NCBI GenBank assembly: GCA_019634575.1
Contig: JAHCAY010000001.1
Location: forward strand, 248,001 to 312,000
DNA from: Candidatus Didemnitutus sp.
GTDB lineage: Bacteria; Verrucomicrobiota; Verrucomicrobiia; Opitutales; Opitutaceae
DNA length: 64,000 nt
Reading direction: 5' to 3'
Shown here piece after piece: positions 29,822-36,408 of the stretch. A program made the position numbers and the translations under genes. The number at the start of each line of letters is the position of its first letter. Position 1 is the stretch's first letter. Under the pieces are notes generated by a model. It worked only from the letters and a program-made list of their open reading frames with translations. It was not told where the DNA came from and did not search any database.

Positions 29822-30994
29822 ATGAAATGGCTGCGTCCCACGCTTGGCTGGTTGATCGGAGCGACCGTCGTGTTGGCTTTCATCGGCTGCAGCGCTCCTC
29901 CGCGCCCGACGGCGATGCAGAGCACGCCACCGCCACCGCCACCACCTCCTCCTCCGCCACCGATGGCAATGCCCCAAGCGGGCAATCCGAACGTCGCGCG
30001 CGGCTTCGAATTCGATCAGGTGCGCGTGTTCTTCGCGACCGATCGCCGGGCGAACGGGGTCGGTGAATTCGGTGGCGAGCGCGGCAGCGAGATCGCTTAC
30101 GGCAACGTCTTTGTGAGCATTCCGCGGCAGCACCGGATCGGAGGCATCGAGCAGCCGTCCATCTGGCGGCTCGAATTCTCCGAGGATCCGCGCAAGCACA
30201 TGACCATCGTCCGCCGGGCGACTTATCCGCGCGACGACTTCGTCGCCGCGATTCGCGAAACCCTCGCGCGCGGTGGCAGTGAGGCGTCGTTCGTGTTCGT
30301 GCACGGCTACAACGTGGCGTTCGACGACGCTGCGCGCCGCACGGCGCAGATCGCCTACGATCTCGATTTCCGCGGTGCACCGGTTTTCTACAGCTGGCCC
30401 TCGCAGGCGTCGCTCGAAGGCTACACGGTGGACGAGGCGAACGTCGAGTGGAGCATGCTCAACCTGAAAAACTTCCTGCTCGATTACGCGCAGCATTGCG
30501 GCGCGAAGGACATCTACCTCATCGCCCATTCGATGGGAAACCGCGCACTCACCCGCGCGGTTTCGACGCTGTTCACGGAACACCCGGAACTGCGCGGACG
30601 CTTCAAGGAAATCATTCTCACCGCGCCGGACGTCGATGCGGACGTCTTCAAGCGCGAGCTCGCGCCGAAGCTCGTGGCCGGCTGCGACAAGATCACGCTC
30701 TACGTCTCGGACGGCGACAAGGCATTGCTCGCCTCGAAGAAAGTTCACGGCTACCCGCGCCTCGGTGACGCGGCGGCCGGGATCGCAGTGATGCCGGGCG
30801 TGGAAACCGTCGACGCTTCCGGTCTCGATACCAGTTTTCTCGAGCATTCATATTTCGCGACCAGTGGTTCCGTGCTGCAGGACATCCGTCGGCTCGTGCT
30901 GGAAGGCCTGCGCGCCGCACAGCGCGGTCTAGCCGAGAAAGGCGACACGGCAGACCGGCGGTATTGGAAGTTTCTTCTGCCCACGGCGCATTGA
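29822..30994 (+). CDS. DUF900-type alpha/beta hydrolase lipoprotein
   Basis: A 390-residue lipoprotein: signal peptide with lipobox FIGC (C23), then a run of 12 prolines (residues 36-47) as a spacer, then an alpha/beta-hydrolase domain. The fold is marked by FVFVHGYNV (160-165) and the nucleophile elbow AHSMGN with S237. An Asp in VDADVFK and a His in FLEHSYF are possible remaining catalytic residues. Related DUF900 proteins are predicted esterases of unknown substrate. The proline run is encoded by an imperfect CCN repeat at about 29925-29962, prone to length change. Confidence 0.88.
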   Translation: MKWLRPTLGWLIGATVVLAFIGCSAPPRPTAMQSTPPPPPPPPPPPPMAMPQAGNPNVARGFEFDQVRVFFATDRRANGVGEFGGERGSEIAYGNVFVSIPRQHRIGGIEQPSIWRLEFSEDPRKHMTIVRRATYPRDDFVAAIRETLARGGSEASFVFVHGYNVAFDDAARRTAQIAYDLDFRGAPVFYSWPSQASLEGYTVDEANVEWSMLNLKNFLLDYAQHCGAKDIYLIAHSMGNRALTRAVSTLFTEHPELRGRFKEIILTAPDVDADVFKRELAPKLVAGCDKITLYVSDGDKALLASKKVHGYPRLGDAAAGIAVMPGVETVDASGLDTSFLEHSYFATSGSVLQDIRRLVLEGLRAAQRGLAEKGDTADRRYWKFLLPTAH

Positions 30995-31019: not shown

Positions 31020-31409
31020 TCAGTCGAGCGTCCGCAGGTAGGCGATCAGGGCGGCGACTTCCTCCGGTGAGTGCTTTTTCGCGAATGACGGCATCTCGCC
31101 GGGAATGCCCCGGAGCACGACGTTCGCGATGCGGCGATCGCTGACTTGCAGCGCGTGGAGGTCGGGCCCTTCGTCGCCGCGCGCGTCGGCGCCATGGCAA
31201 TGGGCGCAACTGTTCAGGTAGAGATCGTGGCCGGTGCGGGTGAGCGTATCCAGCGTCGCCCTGGCCGGCGTCGGCAAACCGGTCCAAGGCGGCAGTTCGT
31301 GCGAATCGCGCCGGGCACGGGCTTCGAGGAGTCTGCCGAGGGCCACGGAGCTGCCGAGCACGATCGCGGCGGCGGTCGCGCTGAAAACCAGGGCTCGATA
31401 CGGGGTCAT
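31020..31409 (-). CDS. Membrane-anchored mono-haem cytochrome c
   Basis: A 129-residue class I cytochrome c. The uncleaved-looking N-terminal hydrophobic segment (6-27) is followed by the haem site CAHCH (68-72) and the axial methionine in GEMPSF (M106). It closes with the AALIAYLRTL helix typical of these domains. It acts in the periplasm as an electron carrier. Its ATG overlaps the stop of the DUF2231 gene (ATGA), so the two are translated together, downstream of the phosphoesterase. Confidence 0.93.
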   Translation of the reverse strand: MTPYRALVFSATAAAIVLGSSVALGRLLEARARRDSHELPPWTGLPTPARATLDTLTRTGHDLYLNSCAHCHGADARGDEGPDLHALQVSDRRIANVVLRGIPGEMPSFAKKHSPEEVAALIAYLRTLD

Positions 31410-31831
31410 GGGAGCGATTGGGAAAGTTGGCCGCCCCAATGGCCGGTCGCAGCGACCAATCCTGCGATGGCGAGCAACAGGACGAGGTGACCGAGATGCG
31501 CGCGCCGTGAGACCGGCAGGGGCCGGCATTGCCGCCAGACCGCCAGTCCGGTCAGCAGCGCGACCATGGGCCAGAGGAACAGGTGGTGCCAACGCAGGGC
31601 GCCGTGGCCCCACAGGTTGCCGCGCGTGAGCCAGAGACCCGATACGAGCGGCGGCCAGCAGCTCACGGCGGCGGCGATGACGGTGTAGCGGGCCATGTTA
31701 AGCCAGGTGCCGGACGACGGCCGGCGCCACGTGAGCTGCGCCAGCGAGTCGCCGAACAACGCGAAGAAAACCAGGGCGATCGGGAAGTGCACGGTGGCGC
31801 CGTGCACTTGGGCCCAAAGCGGTGCGGACAT
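31406..31831 (-). CDS. DUF2231-like four-helix membrane protein
   Basis: A 141-residue membrane protein with four predicted helices (about 12-35, 46-68, 82-98, 110-130). The N-terminal HGATVHFPIAL matches the VHFPIA signature of the DUF2231 family, and several histidines in the helices (WHHLFLWP, HLGHLVL) could bind haem. It sits between a Tat phosphoesterase (6 bases upstream) and a cytochrome c. Inference: a membrane redox partner for that cytochrome. Confidence 0.82.
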   Translation of the reverse strand: MSAPLWAQVHGATVHFPIALVFFALFGDSLAQLTWRRPSSGTWLNMARYTVIAAAVSCWPPLVSGLWLTRGNLWGHGALRWHHLFLWPMVALLTGLAVWRQCRPLPVSRRAHLGHLVLLLAIAGLVAATGHWGGQLSQSLP

Positions 31832-31837
31832 GTCGGC

Positions 31838-32806
31838 TTACTTCTCGGCGAGGGTGTGATCGACGACGGCGAGCGGCTTGTCGTGCTCGAGGAAGGTCAC
31901 CTCGGTCAAACCGAGCGTGGAACGCAGGCGCGGCGCCTCGACGACCATGGGGCCGGGCTTGGGTGCGGCACCGGGCGCGGGTTGCGGAAACGCGGTCGAG
32001 CAAGCGGTGTGGAAGGTGACGTTGCCTTCGATTTTTTGCAGGGTCTGGTGAATGTGTCCGTTCAGAACCGTGACGGATCCGAAGCGCTTCAGCAGCGTGA
32101 GCGCCTTCTCGGCGTCGCTCGTGCCCCAGCCCCATTGCGGGTAGACGGACCAAAGCGGAATGTGCGCGTAGACCACGATGGGCGTCTCGGCCGAGAGCGG
32201 CGCGAGGTCGCGCGCCAGCCAGTCGAGCTGCTCGGCGCCCAGCACGCCGAGGCCGCCTTCGGCGATCGCCGCGACGTTGACCAGGCCGATGAAATGCACG
32301 CCCTTCTGGTCGAAGCTGTGCCAGCCGGCGCCGAAGGTGTTGCGGCCGAAACGGGCGCGGTATTGGGCGCCGTTGTCGTTGAGGATGTCGTGCTCGCCGG
32401 GCACGTAGAAGACCTGCTTGGTGCGGCAGTCCTTCAGCAGTTGTTCGAGCGTGTCGAACTCGGCCGCTTCGGACAGGTGCGTGAGGTCGCCGGTGTGCAG
32501 GATGAAGTCCGGTGCATGCTGGAGCGCGTTGATGCGTGCAATCGACTCGCGGAAGGTCCCGACGACATCCTGATTCGCCGGCTTGTGAAAGCCGATGTGG
32601 CTGTCGCTGATTTGAACGAAGTGCAGGGCATTGCCGCCCGCCAAGGGGAGATCGCCGAGCCCGGTCGTCTGGCCCAGCACCTTGGACGTGAGGACGCCGC
32701 TGCTGAGGGTCCACAGCACGCCGGTGCCTGCCCAGGCCATGCACTTGAGGAAGCCACGGCGGTCGATGCCGTCGTGATGATGATCGTCGAGGATGAAGTC
32801 GCTCAT
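31838..32806 (-). CDS. Tat-exported metallophosphoesterase
   Basis: A 322-residue calcineurin-like phosphoesterase. The N-terminus carries a twin-arginine signal (DRRGFLK, R16/R17, then a hydrophobic stretch), so it is exported folded. Metal motifs are in order: QISDSHIG, HTGDLTH, VPGEHD, a YAHIPLW histidine and NGHIH. It is first in a three-gene run with the DUF2231 protein and cytochrome c, and is divergent from an ECF sigma gene. The phosphoester substrate is not predictable from sequence. Confidence 0.92.
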   Translation of the reverse strand: MSDFILDDHHHDGIDRRGFLKCMAWAGTGVLWTLSSGVLTSKVLGQTTGLGDLPLAGGNALHFVQISDSHIGFHKPANQDVVGTFRESIARINALQHAPDFILHTGDLTHLSEAAEFDTLEQLLKDCRTKQVFYVPGEHDILNDNGAQYRARFGRNTFGAGWHSFDQKGVHFIGLVNVAAIAEGGLGVLGAEQLDWLARDLAPLSAETPIVVYAHIPLWSVYPQWGWGTSDAEKALTLLKRFGSVTVLNGHIHQTLQKIEGNVTFHTACSTAFPQPAPGAAPKPGPMVVEAPRLRSTLGLTEVTFLEHDKPLAVVDHTLAEK

Positions 32807-32821
32807 AAGGTTTCATCTCCC

Positions 32822-32849
32822 GTTACGCCGAGGCCGGGCGGTTTATTCG
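32822..32849 (-). promoter_or_regulatory. Putative ECF-sigma promoter for the phosphoesterase operon
   Basis: On the minus strand CGAATAA (32849-32843) is separated by 15 bases from CGTAAC (32827-32822). The 27-base stretch from GAATAAAC to CGTAAC matches the plus-strand copy at 32875-32901 at 21 positions. It lies 16 bases before the start codon. Assigned as a -35/-10 pair by pattern and symmetry; it could instead be half of a dyad operator. Confidence 0.55.
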
Positions 32850-32873
32850 CCGGAAAAGAAAAAAGCTGCGCCG

Positions 32874-32901
32874 GGAATAAACGGCCCGGGCGCCGCGTAT
32901 A
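32874..32901 (+). promoter_or_regulatory. Putative autoregulated ECF-sigma promoter
   Basis: GGAATAA at 32874-32880, a 15-base spacer and CGTATA at 32896-32901, 21 bases before the sigma start codon. The GGAA-type -35 and CGT-type -10 are characteristic of ECF promoters, and the same motif points the other way toward the phosphoesterase gene. Confidence 0.6.
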
Positions 32902-32922
32902 TGTAATCAGGCCCTCGCCGCC

Positions 32923-33441
32923 ATGACCTCTCCCTTCGAGCAAACGATGCTGCCGCACCTGGATGCCGCCTACAACCTGGCGCACTGGCTGTTGCGCAAC
33001 GAGCAGGATGCACGGGATTCCGTGCAGGAGGCCTATCTGCGCGCGTTCAAGGCCTTTCACGGCTTCCGCGGCGGAGACGGACGCGCCTGGCTGCTGACGA
33101 TCGTGCGCAACGTCTGCTACACGCATCTGCGGCGGATGCAGCGCCAGCTGCCCACCGAGCCGTTCGACGAAAGCCAGCACGGGCGGGTCAACGAGCCGGC
33201 GGAACTGGCGGTGCTCGACCGGCAGGAGATCGATCACGCGCGCTTGGATGCGGCGCTGACGGCGCTGCCGGTCGATCTTCGCGAGGTGTTGGTGCTGCAC
33301 GAAATCGAGGGACTCGCCTATAAGGAGATCGCGGCCGTCGTGGGCATCCCGCTCGGCACCGTGATGTCGCGTCTCTCCCGCGCGCGTCTGCGTCTGAACC
33401 GCGCCCTGCTCGGTCCCGCCCAATCGGAGGAACGTCCATGA
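32923..33441 (+). CDS. ECF RNA polymerase sigma factor
   Basis: A 172-residue ECF sigma factor with region 2 (NEQDARDSVQEAYLRAF, AWLLTIVRN) and region 4 (LPVDLREVLVLHEIEGLAYKEIAAVVGIPLGTVMSRLSRAR). It overlaps the anti-sigma gene by ATGA. The upstream region carries an ECF-like promoter motif also found in mirror image in front of the phosphoesterase operon. The simplest reading is that this factor switches on both itself and that operon. Confidence 0.95.
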   Translation: MTSPFEQTMLPHLDAAYNLAHWLLRNEQDARDSVQEAYLRAFKAFHGFRGGDGRAWLLTIVRNVCYTHLRRMQRQLPTEPFDESQHGRVNEPAELAVLDRQEIDHARLDAALTALPVDLREVLVLHEIEGLAYKEIAAVVGIPLGTVMSRLSRARLRLNRALLGPAQSEERP

Positions 33442-34211
33442 CCTGCGAACAAATCCGCCCGCTGCTCGGCTCGCATCTCGACGAGGAGCTCGACGTCGTG
33501 CACGATGCCACCGTCGTCGCGCATCTCGACACTTGCCCGCATTGCACCCGCGAGTTGCAGGCGCTGACCGAGCTACGCCGGACGTTGCAACGCAGTCCAC
33601 TGCGCCGCGCTGCGCCGGTCGACTTGGCGGCGCAGATTCGCCGGCAACTCGCGGCCGAGCCGGCGGCGCACGCGGGACGCGTCGTGCGTTTTCCACGGCG
33701 CTGGTCGCAAGCGTTCGCGCTCGCCGCCTCGATTGCGCTCGCGGGGGCGATCGGTTTTCAGTGGGGCCGCATGCGGAGCGAACGGATCGGATTCACGGAC
33801 GATGCCACCGCCAGCTTTGTCCGGGCGCGCGCGACGGGACGGCTTTACGAAGTCGCGTCGTCGAGTCAGCACACGGTGAAGCCGTGGTTCGCGGGGCGCG
33901 TGGACTTTTCGCCGGCAGTGCCGGACTTGGCGGCGCAGGGATTTCCGCTGCTGGGCGGACGAGTCGAGCGCTTCGGAACGCGTCCGGCGGCTGCTTTGGT
34001 CTACGGACGGCGGCAGCACACGATCGACGTTTACGTCTGGCGTGACGGTCCGGCCGCGAGCGAGGCTCCGGTGCGCGAAGCCGGTTTCACGCTGCTGGGT
34101 TGGAAAGGGGAGGACGGGCTCTTCTATGTGGCCGTCTCGGATCTCGCGGCGCCTGAGCTGATGGAATTCCGGCGGCAGTTCACCGGAGTGGACGCGTCGC
34201 TTCCGCAATAG
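33438..34211 (+). CDS. Zinc-finger anti-sigma factor
   Basis: A 257-residue single-pass membrane regulator. The N-terminal domain has H29-x3-C33-x2-C36 (HLDTCPHC) plus C3, the zinc-binding anti-sigma (ZAS) layout. A hydrophobic segment lies at about 89-108, then a periplasmic domain of about 145 residues containing SQHTVKPWF and repeated short strands (RQHTIDVYVW). The C-terminal domain presumably senses the stimulus, which is unknown. Overlap with the sigma gene supports the pairing. Confidence 0.92.
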   Translation: MTCEQIRPLLGSHLDEELDVVHDATVVAHLDTCPHCTRELQALTELRRTLQRSPLRRAAPVDLAAQIRRQLAAEPAAHAGRVVRFPRRWSQAFALAASIALAGAIGFQWGRMRSERIGFTDDATASFVRARATGRLYEVASSSQHTVKPWFAGRVDFSPAVPDLAAQGFPLLGGRVERFGTRPAAALVYGRRQHTIDVYVWRDGPAASEAPVREAGFTLLGWKGEDGLFYVAVSDLAAPELMEFRRQFTGVDASLPQ

Positions 34212-34506: not shown

Positions 34507-36195
34507 TCAGTCGGCCGTCTCGACGAAGCCGACGGCTTCGAGGTTGTAATCAGCGTAGGATCTGAAGACGCCGCGAGTCCACAGGACGACGCGCTGCGCT
34601 CCATCGCGGACGATGATCGGGCGGAGGTTGGCGACGGACGAATCGTGCGTGACGGGCTCCCATTTCACCGTCTGGAGATTGTCGTGCGGCCCGATTTTCG
34701 CGCGGTAGATTTCGTGCCGCCCGCCGGAATCGATGCCCGTGCTCGGATTCACGTTGGTGGAGATGAAAACCTGGGTCGGATCGACGGGGTCGAGGGTGAC
34801 GAGTCCGGTGTAACTGGCTTCCTTCGCGTAGAGACAGCGGCCGCCGTAGGCGATCTCGCGGTCGATCCACTTCTTTCCGTCCCACGAGGCGAGACGGTAG
34901 CGGTGGTCGTCGTTCGAGAGGTAGAGCGTGTAGGCGATGTGCGGGCGGCCCTGCGTGTCGAGGGCGATGGACGAAGTCCACGCGGCGGATGGAGCATTTC
35001 CGAGCGTGGCGCCGTCGGTCTTCACGCCGCTGCCGCGGAAAATCCGCTCGGCGGCGGAGGGCTTCAGCGGTCCGTCGGCGAGATCGGAAATCTTCGTGCC
35101 GTCGGCGCGGTAGAAAGCGCGGCCGCGAAACGCGGTGTAGTAAATGCTGTTTCCGAAGTCGCGGGGGTGCGCGTCGGTGAACGTCACGAGGACGGTGTCG
35201 CGGCCGTTGCCGGCATAGCGCGCATACGGACGTTGGTAACCGGGGACCTCGCTTTTGATGAAGTGCGTATCCTCGCTCCAAGTCAGGCCGTCGTCGGTGG
35301 AGGTCACGAAGCTGGGGTTGAACTCGAAGCCGCGGTAGAAATTGTAGAGCTTACCCTCGGCCGAGAGCGGTAGGAGATTCATGTAAGTCACGCGGTCGCG
35401 CTCGGGGAGCGTCGCGGTGTGGTCGATGCGTTTCTCCTCGGACCAACGCGTGCAGTCCTGCGGATCGCTGACGCGGTAATAGTGGAATTTCTCGCGACTG
35501 TGTCGCGCATACATCGCGAGCACCGAGCCGTCGGGTCGCGCGTAGAACACGGGAGAGTTATGGTCGTCGCAGTCGAATTTCTCGTGCAGGACGAACGGGC
35601 CGAGCGATTTTTCCGCGCGCAGATCGTAGATGCCGACCAGCGCCTCGCCGTCGCCGTTTCCCTTAACGGCACCGATGAAGAGTTTACCCTGATGTAGGAT
35701 GACGCGCGGATCCTGATACCAGCACCAACCCGCGTCCCGCATGAACGTGGTCAACCTCACGCGTGCCGCTGTGTCTGCGGTCGGCGTCGGAGCCGCGCTG
35801 ACGGACGCAGCAAGGCGAGCGGGCGTCTGATCGTCGGCGAGTCTGAACACTCCTGCGGTCGCCGCGACAAACAGCCCGGAACCGTAAACCTCGGGGTAGT
35901 TCGCAAACGAGACCCCCGGCGCGTCGCACACCGGTTGCACCCAGCCCACCATGCCCGCGTAAAGCGCGCCACGGTGCCAGACGAGTTCGTGGGATTTACG
36001 GCGATTCTCGGGCTTGTCGCGCGAATCGGGCAGAGCGCAATAGGTGCCCACGTCCTCGAACGTCGCGATTTGCCGATCGGCAACATTGCGGTCGAGCGTG
36101 TAGACCTCCGGCGCGTCGACCGGTCCAGTGGGCGCGGCGAACAACCAAGTCGGAATCAGAACACAGAGAAGCAGCAAGCGGGAGTGGGTCGTCAT
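34507..36195 (-). CDS. Secreted BNR-repeat protein (BNR_4 / ulvan-lyase-like fold)
   Basis: A 562-residue protein with a Sec signal peptide (MTTHSRLLLL to LFAAP) and a beta-propeller-like body. It has the sequence style of the BNR_4 family, which includes PL24/PL25 ulvan lyases and sialidase-like proteins. Examples are WYQDPRVILHQGKLFIG, CDDHNSPVF with DGSVLAMYARHS, and FNPSFVTSTDDGLTW. The Asp/His-rich DDHNSP block is typical of the putative active site. Likely acts on an external polysaccharide; substrate unproven. The ATG at 36195 is used rather than one 35 codons upstream. It stands alone, flanked by intact ffh and the ffh remnant. Confidence 0.85.
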   Translation of the reverse strand: MTTHSRLLLLCVLIPTWLFAAPTGPVDAPEVYTLDRNVADRQIATFEDVGTYCALPDSRDKPENRRKSHELVWHRGALYAGMVGWVQPVCDAPGVSFANYPEVYGSGLFVAATAGVFRLADDQTPARLAASVSAAPTPTADTAARVRLTTFMRDAGWCWYQDPRVILHQGKLFIGAVKGNGDGEALVGIYDLRAEKSLGPFVLHEKFDCDDHNSPVFYARPDGSVLAMYARHSREKFHYYRVSDPQDCTRWSEEKRIDHTATLPERDRVTYMNLLPLSAEGKLYNFYRGFEFNPSFVTSTDDGLTWSEDTHFIKSEVPGYQRPYARYAGNGRDTVLVTFTDAHPRDFGNSIYYTAFRGRAFYRADGTKISDLADGPLKPSAAERIFRGSGVKTDGATLGNAPSAAWTSSIALDTQGRPHIAYTLYLSNDDHRYRLASWDGKKWIDREIAYGGRCLYAKEASYTGLVTLDPVDPTQVFISTNVNPSTGIDSGGRHEIYRAKIGPHDNLQTVKWEPVTHDSSVANLRPIIVRDGAQRVVLWTRGVFRSYADYNLEAVGFVETAD

Positions 36196-36408
36196 GCGCG
36201 GTTGGGGACAATTGTTGAGCCGACGGGGTCTGCGGCTGCGCTCAGGTCGTGAGCGCAGCATCCGGCGGCAAAAACCGGGCTCAAGCCGGATAGTCCGCAA
36301 ACTGTGTCAAGAGAAGCGGCGAGCCACCGGCCGACGCGATCCCCGTGGGGCCGGCGTTGCCGGGGCAGCGCGCGTTACACTGACGGTGTCAGCCGAGGTG
36401 GCGCGCGC

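Follow-up and report, generated by a model that had tools for sequence, protein, structure and literature searches.

Mirror-image candidate ECF promoters between a sigma/anti-sigma operon and a phosphoesterase operon in a verrucomicrobial genome

Promoters of the ECF26 group of sigma factors have a consensus that extends across species, with GGAATA at -35 and GT at -10 (PMC6180224). In S. meliloti the elements of ECF26-type promoters are given as -35 GGAAT and -10 CGTC (PMC6527743), the mapped rpoE4 promoter reads GGAATAA-N15-CGTC, and the mapped start of sorT is 34 bases downstream of the G that begins GGAATT (PMC6180224). The S. meliloti factors RpoE1 and RpoE4, which cross-activate each other's promoters (PMC3511301, PMC6180224), control a sulfite oxidase together with a cytochrome c and a pseudoazurin (PMC3511301). 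We found elements of this kind on both strands of a 116-base gap (32807-32922) between two divergent start codons in the 64,000-nucleotide stretch of DNA analysed here (the window, G000:C1:248001-312000, from a genome of 5.25 Mb), and we consider it very probable that these are two divergent promoters, both read by a single ECF holoenzyme, which would drive the operons on both sides.

To the right of the gap, on the plus strand, lies the gene for an ECF sigma factor of 172 residues (32923-33441) with matches to PF04542 (residues 12-74) and PF08281 (residues 106-158), that is, with sigma regions 2 and 4 and no region 3. Its stop codon overlaps (ATGA) the start of an anti-sigma factor gene (33438-34211, plus strand), whose product has a PF13490 zinc-finger anti-sigma domain, one predicted transmembrane helix and an RseB-like C-terminal domain; the pair thus has the traits of ECF (group 4) systems, namely regions 2 and 4 without region 3 and an anti-sigma gene in the same operon. 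On the minus strand, the divergent operon begins with a gene for a calcineurin-like phosphoesterase (31838-32806; PF00149) that has a twin-arginine (RRGFLKC) N-terminus and GEHD instead of GNHD. Six bases downstream follows a gene for a DUF2231 membrane protein (31406-31831; PF09990), the stop codon of which overlaps (ATGA) the start of the third gene, for a cbb3-type cytochrome c of 129 residues (31020-31409; PF13442). A longer cytochrome c reading frame, from 31613, is not the likely start. Past both outer ends come convergent reading frames, one for a DUF900 hydrolase (29822-30994) and one for a BNR-repeat protein (34507-36300), and because of these both operons look complete. The gene linkage seen directly here agrees with the first-pass annotation, which had named a sigma factor encoded at 32923, its anti-sigma, and exported phosphoesterase, DUF2231 and cytochrome c genes; the anti-sigma is of the zf-HC2 type.

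Within the gap a 27-base sequence occurs twice in inverted orientation, at 32875-32901 on the plus strand and at 32848-32822 on the minus strand, with 21 of 27 positions identical. Over all registers of the gap the best copy-to-copy identity was 22, and none of 200 shuffles that preserved its dinucleotides exceeded 19 matches in any register. The inverted pair described in the first reading of this DNA is real. A general repeat finder did not pick it up, its exact seeds and extension rule being unsuited to such a pair. Each copy carries, as had also been claimed, a -35-type element 15 bases from CGTA. The predicted promoter of the sigma/anti-sigma operon (32874-32899, plus strand) has -35 GGAATAA at 32874-32880 and -10 CGTA at 32896-32899; its mirror image, the predicted promoter of the phosphoesterase operon (32824-32849, minus strand), has -35 CGAATAA at 32849-32843 and -10 CGTA at 32827-32824. 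Between the back-to-back -35 elements are 24 bases (32850-32873) with the A-tract GGAAAAGAAAAAAG, and a sigma-70-type site was looked for in the region and not found. By analogy with sorT (PMC6180224), transcription would start near 32908 on the sigma side and near 32815 on the phosphoesterase side, giving short predicted leaders of about 15 and about 9 bases, and GGGAG at 32821-32817, in the region 32806-32821, would fall upstream of the predicted phosphoesterase transcript. The short leaders and the position of GGGAG outside the transcript, both dependent on this analogy, weigh against the two-promoter explanation.

A search of the whole 5.25-Mb genome with GAATAAAC-N12..14-CGTA returned exactly two matches, both in this gap; the reversed control pattern had no match in the whole genome. 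A sequence-only profile built from 18 sites gave the two gap sites E-values of 0.004 and 0.016 and the next site 0.68; both gap sites belong to the 18 training sites, and the informative result is therefore the absence of other good scores. A larger regulon was also considered, but the other genomic matches to GGAATAA-N14..16-CGT were unconvincing as promoters: the near match at C1:1238848 lies within a 718-residue reading frame and that at C2:406343 overlaps reading frames. As the profile gives only two good sites in the genome, the regulon probably comprises just these two operons at the sensitivity of the profile, with weaker targets possible. The first-pass annotation had predicted a self-contained regulon and proposed a genome-wide motif search for further members; that search, with no other strong site, fits its prediction.

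A contig scan and several whole-genome scans gave orthologs from Verrucomicrobiota, Acidobacteria, Planctomycetes and Proteobacteria; the sigma/anti-sigma pair was also present in isolated records with the labels Nitrospirae and Herpetosiphonaceae. We collected 40 gaps in which the sigma and phosphoesterase genes are divergent; among these, L039 and L126, and L041 and L131, are possible same-species duplicates. By a rule fixed for all gaps (a GAAT core, GT in the -10 element and a spacer of 14-16), we found an element on the sigma side in 38 gaps and on the phosphoesterase side in 37. When each gap was shuffled, as good a score came up in at most 4 of 300 trials on the sigma side and at most 14 of 300 on the phosphoesterase side. 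Both strands carry a GGAATAA-N14/15-NGT-like element in 35 of the 40, the outcome that the first reading had led us to look for in orthologous gaps. In the 384 genomes sampled from the class, the sigma factor occurred in 23, the phosphoesterase in 24 and both in 22 (Fisher p about 2e-32, relatedness uncontrolled). In Variovorax the divergent gene encodes a YncE-like beta-propeller with a cupredoxin domain, which replaces the phosphoesterase, and the gap keeps both promoters, each with CGTCATGC. This comparison of gaps and genomes strongly supports a role for the sigma factor as the predicted driver of both operons. The family of the window also includes G187, in which the sigma factor has exactly the sequence found in Opitutaceae bacterium EW11 (L041), so that an origin of the window in Opitutaceae is most likely. 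A short spacing before the phosphoesterase start codon is also found in the nearest relatives of the window. In the verrucomicrobial family f30 there are many sigma/anti-sigma copies without a divergent phosphoesterase (L198, L204-L206, L209, L211, L213, L214), and at these loci mirrored sites about 70-82 bases apart face another gene.

A tree of 141 sigma factors groups that of the window with its orthologs in a supported clade (98), and RpoE6, the one ECF26 member in the tree (RpoE1 and RpoE4 being absent from it), falls in another supported clade (97). Because its clade stands apart from RpoE6, we do not at present file this sigma factor under ECF26. Both sites of the gap and the ortholog sites conform to the ECF26 promoter consensus, the minus-strand site reading CGAATA; an ECF26-like promoter is a shared feature and no proof of ECF26 membership. 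The -10 tetramers of paired sites agree within a gap in 16 of 34 gaps, against 3.9 expected under plain permutation. Co-evolution of the two -10 boxes was considered and not retained: the supported branches of the sigma tree offer three independent pairs, which go in the same direction or show no difference, and with three pairs only the agreement cannot reach significance on the tree. We also observed, in a different ECF clade of the genus (L006-L026, e.g., L016:2500-2530), the sequence TTTTGAATAA-N14/15-CGTCYYAAG, with a related -35 and a distinct -10 element. This site lies upstream of a gene for a small secreted protein; that gene is flanked by the sigma gene and by one for a putative anti-sigma factor, and the relative of that clade in the genome of the window is probably G000:C1:582707-583216.

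Other readings of the gap bear on different parts of this evidence. The first-pass annotation had noted that conservation of the spacers also allows a dyad operator for another regulator; in this reading an activator or a repressor would act on the inverted repeat and control both operons. The spacers of the window are indeed identical at 11 of 15 positions, which 0.27% of cross-gap spacer pairs reach, and they share GCCCGG as it had stated; across 34 gaps, however, mean spacer identity is 5.6/15 within a gap against 5.3/15 between gaps, a single value of 11/15 is unsurprising among so many, and GCCCGG is no conserved feature of the orthologous gaps. What is conserved is the pair of -35 and -10 elements in promoter spacing and promoter orientation, and the distance between the arms ranges over the gaps from 4 to more than 400 bases, unlike that of a single operator. 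As the likeness of spacers within a gap is no more than chance, we reject the dyad operator as the main reading and judge it very improbable. A further idea is that only the sigma-side site is a promoter, the one on the phosphoesterase side having arisen by accident or being a decayed copy. It draws on the C in place of G that begins the minus-strand -35 element (CGAATAA) and on the greater variability of phosphoesterase-side elements in relatives (GGAATAT, GGAATTT), and it is at odds with the finding of a phosphoesterase-side element by the fixed rule in 37 of the 40 gaps and with the GGAATAA-N14-CATA on that side in L039; we think it highly unlikely.

Both sites might also be ECF promoters that are read by a different ECF sigma factor of the genome, or by several, the local one acting within a larger network. 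There are 25 matches to this sigma factor in the genome, itself included, so another ECF sigma factor could read the same elements; a similar -35, in TTTTGAATAA-N14/15-CGTC, stands by the operon of the other ECF clade mentioned above, and cross-activation is on record for RpoE1 and RpoE4 of S. meliloti (PMC3511301, PMC6180224). Nevertheless, the sites and this sigma gene occur together across phyla, the listed genomes of the same genus lack the sigma ortholog and the phosphoesterase alike, and the genome is without any other strong site; we think it very unlikely that a different sigma factor, or several, read the two promoters.

In most gaps the two -35 elements are 22-26 or 31-36 bases apart, and in a smaller number 42-47. 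With close kin collapsed to leave 24 values, these distances show a periodicity of about 10.9 bases (R 0.56; after a scan of periods 9.5-12.5 and against smoothed and uniform nulls, p is about 0.002), a periodicity that was sought after the distances had been seen and in which deeper relatedness is not fully controlled. The clustering of these distances in the compared gaps, mostly at about 24 or 35, suggests helical phasing, and if the periodicity is real both polymerases would be on the same face of the DNA. Further phosphoesterase gaps had distances of 4, 25, 25, 26, 35, 35 and 47; these gaps seem closely related to those of the first set and are therefore no independent test of phasing. 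An UP element common to both promoters was considered and rejected: A/T tracts are visible, but the A+T content of 0.51 does not differ significantly from the 0.46 of the flanks (Wilcoxon p 0.10).

The anti-sigma factor contains HLDTCPHC, the H-x3-C-x2-C of the ZAS motif (H29, C33 and C36), kept in >90% of orthologs and missing in L062, and a long helix that we take as a predicted membrane span. Its structure model is good (mean pLDDT 87.5), with an N-terminal fold like those of RsiW and MucA (Z about 7.5). The C-terminal domain, in which the ortholog alignment shows an invariant H145-x-V-K-P-W and H194, has its closest, though modest, match in the small domain of RseB and MucB (Foldseek E 0.002, Z 8.2); it may sense an envelope signal.

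The phosphoesterase, which has a conserved Cys five residues past the twin arginines of its N-terminus, has a calcineurin-like fold, nearest to GpdQ (Foldseek E 1.6e-10, Z 18.8) and Rv0805 (Z 16.7) in a structure model of middling confidence (mean pLDDT 67.6). Its GEHD aligns to the GNHD of these two enzymes and departs from the canonical GNH[DE] with its Asn metal ligand; GEHD is present in all 39 orthologs scored and in proteins of 35-40% identity (27-sequence alignment). The genes that accompany the phosphoesterase gene are for a cytochrome c with DUF2231 in Verrucomicrobiota, a cupredoxin in acidobacterium L047, Caballeronia and the Methylobacteriaceae record L062, and a cupredoxin plus a cytochrome c in Oxalobacteraceae. 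This company of cytochrome c and cupredoxin genes suggests a redox role for the phosphoesterase module. SoxB, which acts in sulfur oxidation, also has a calcineurin-like phosphoesterase fold. One could picture, as a possible though doubtful extension, an as yet unrecognised periplasmic redox system in which a Glu-for-Asn phosphoesterase of changed chemistry is paired with cytochrome c or cupredoxin (cf. SoxB, and SorT-SorU-azurin in sulfur oxidation), under a sigma group distinct from ECF26 and two helically phased, co-acting promoters. A full-text literature search combining genes of this subfamily with sigma factors found no paper.

If a single ECF holoenzyme reads both divergent promoters, the circuit could work as follows. 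The membrane-anchored anti-sigma factor, its RseB-like domain outside, would keep the sigma factor bound, to be released by a signal from the periplasm or the envelope; the freed sigma factor with RNA polymerase would then recognise GGAATAA-N15-CGTA on both strands, with rightward transcription of the sigma/anti-sigma operon and leftward transcription of the phosphoesterase-DUF2231-cytochrome c operon. This one step would give positive feedback, negative feedback through the anti-sigma factor, and output. A mirrored-promoter sigma circuit is another version of a well-known type of switch; the new points are GEHD, the company of cytochrome c and cupredoxin genes, the RseB-like end of the anti-sigma factor and the clustering of -35 distances. 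The whole ECF circuit occupies about 3 kb with two promoters, and since the genome has no other strong site, the sigma factor, promoter and output could be tested without a surrounding network. The retention of the mirrored promoters across several phyla, together with the swap of the output gene, offers a natural series for following co-change of sigma factor and promoter, and a likely regulator can now be assigned to a phosphoesterase subfamily that is widespread and in which the metal site is altered.

Set beside known systems, the locus resembles S. meliloti RpoE1-EcfR1 and RpoE4-EcfR4 in its promoter elements (-35 GGAATA(A) and -10 GT/CGTC, with a 15-base spacer in rpoE4; PMC3511301, PMC6180224, PMC6527743), and it resembles these pairs in the co-transcribed membrane anti-sigma factor, in the predicted autoregulation and in the small regulon. 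As with sorT-sorU-azu2, the output enzyme is encoded with a redox carrier, the carriers in S. meliloti being a cytochrome c and a cupredoxin; the output, however, is a phosphoesterase-fold protein here and a sulfite oxidase there. S. meliloti RpoE1 and RpoE4 respond to sulfite. With AlgU-MucA, SigW-RsiW and SigH/SigR-RsrA the locus has in common a sigma factor of regions 2 and 4 only and a two-gene operon, but it differs from them in promoter sequence and output and in having an RseB/MucB-like C-terminal domain on the same chain as the anti-sigma factor. The phosphoesterase, finally, shares its fold and its metal-binding motifs, bar one position, with GpdQ of Enterobacter aerogenes and Rv0805 of M. 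tuberculosis; unlike these, it has an invariant Glu where GNHD has its Asn (N97 in Rv0805), a twin-arginine N-terminus and a redox carrier encoded alongside.
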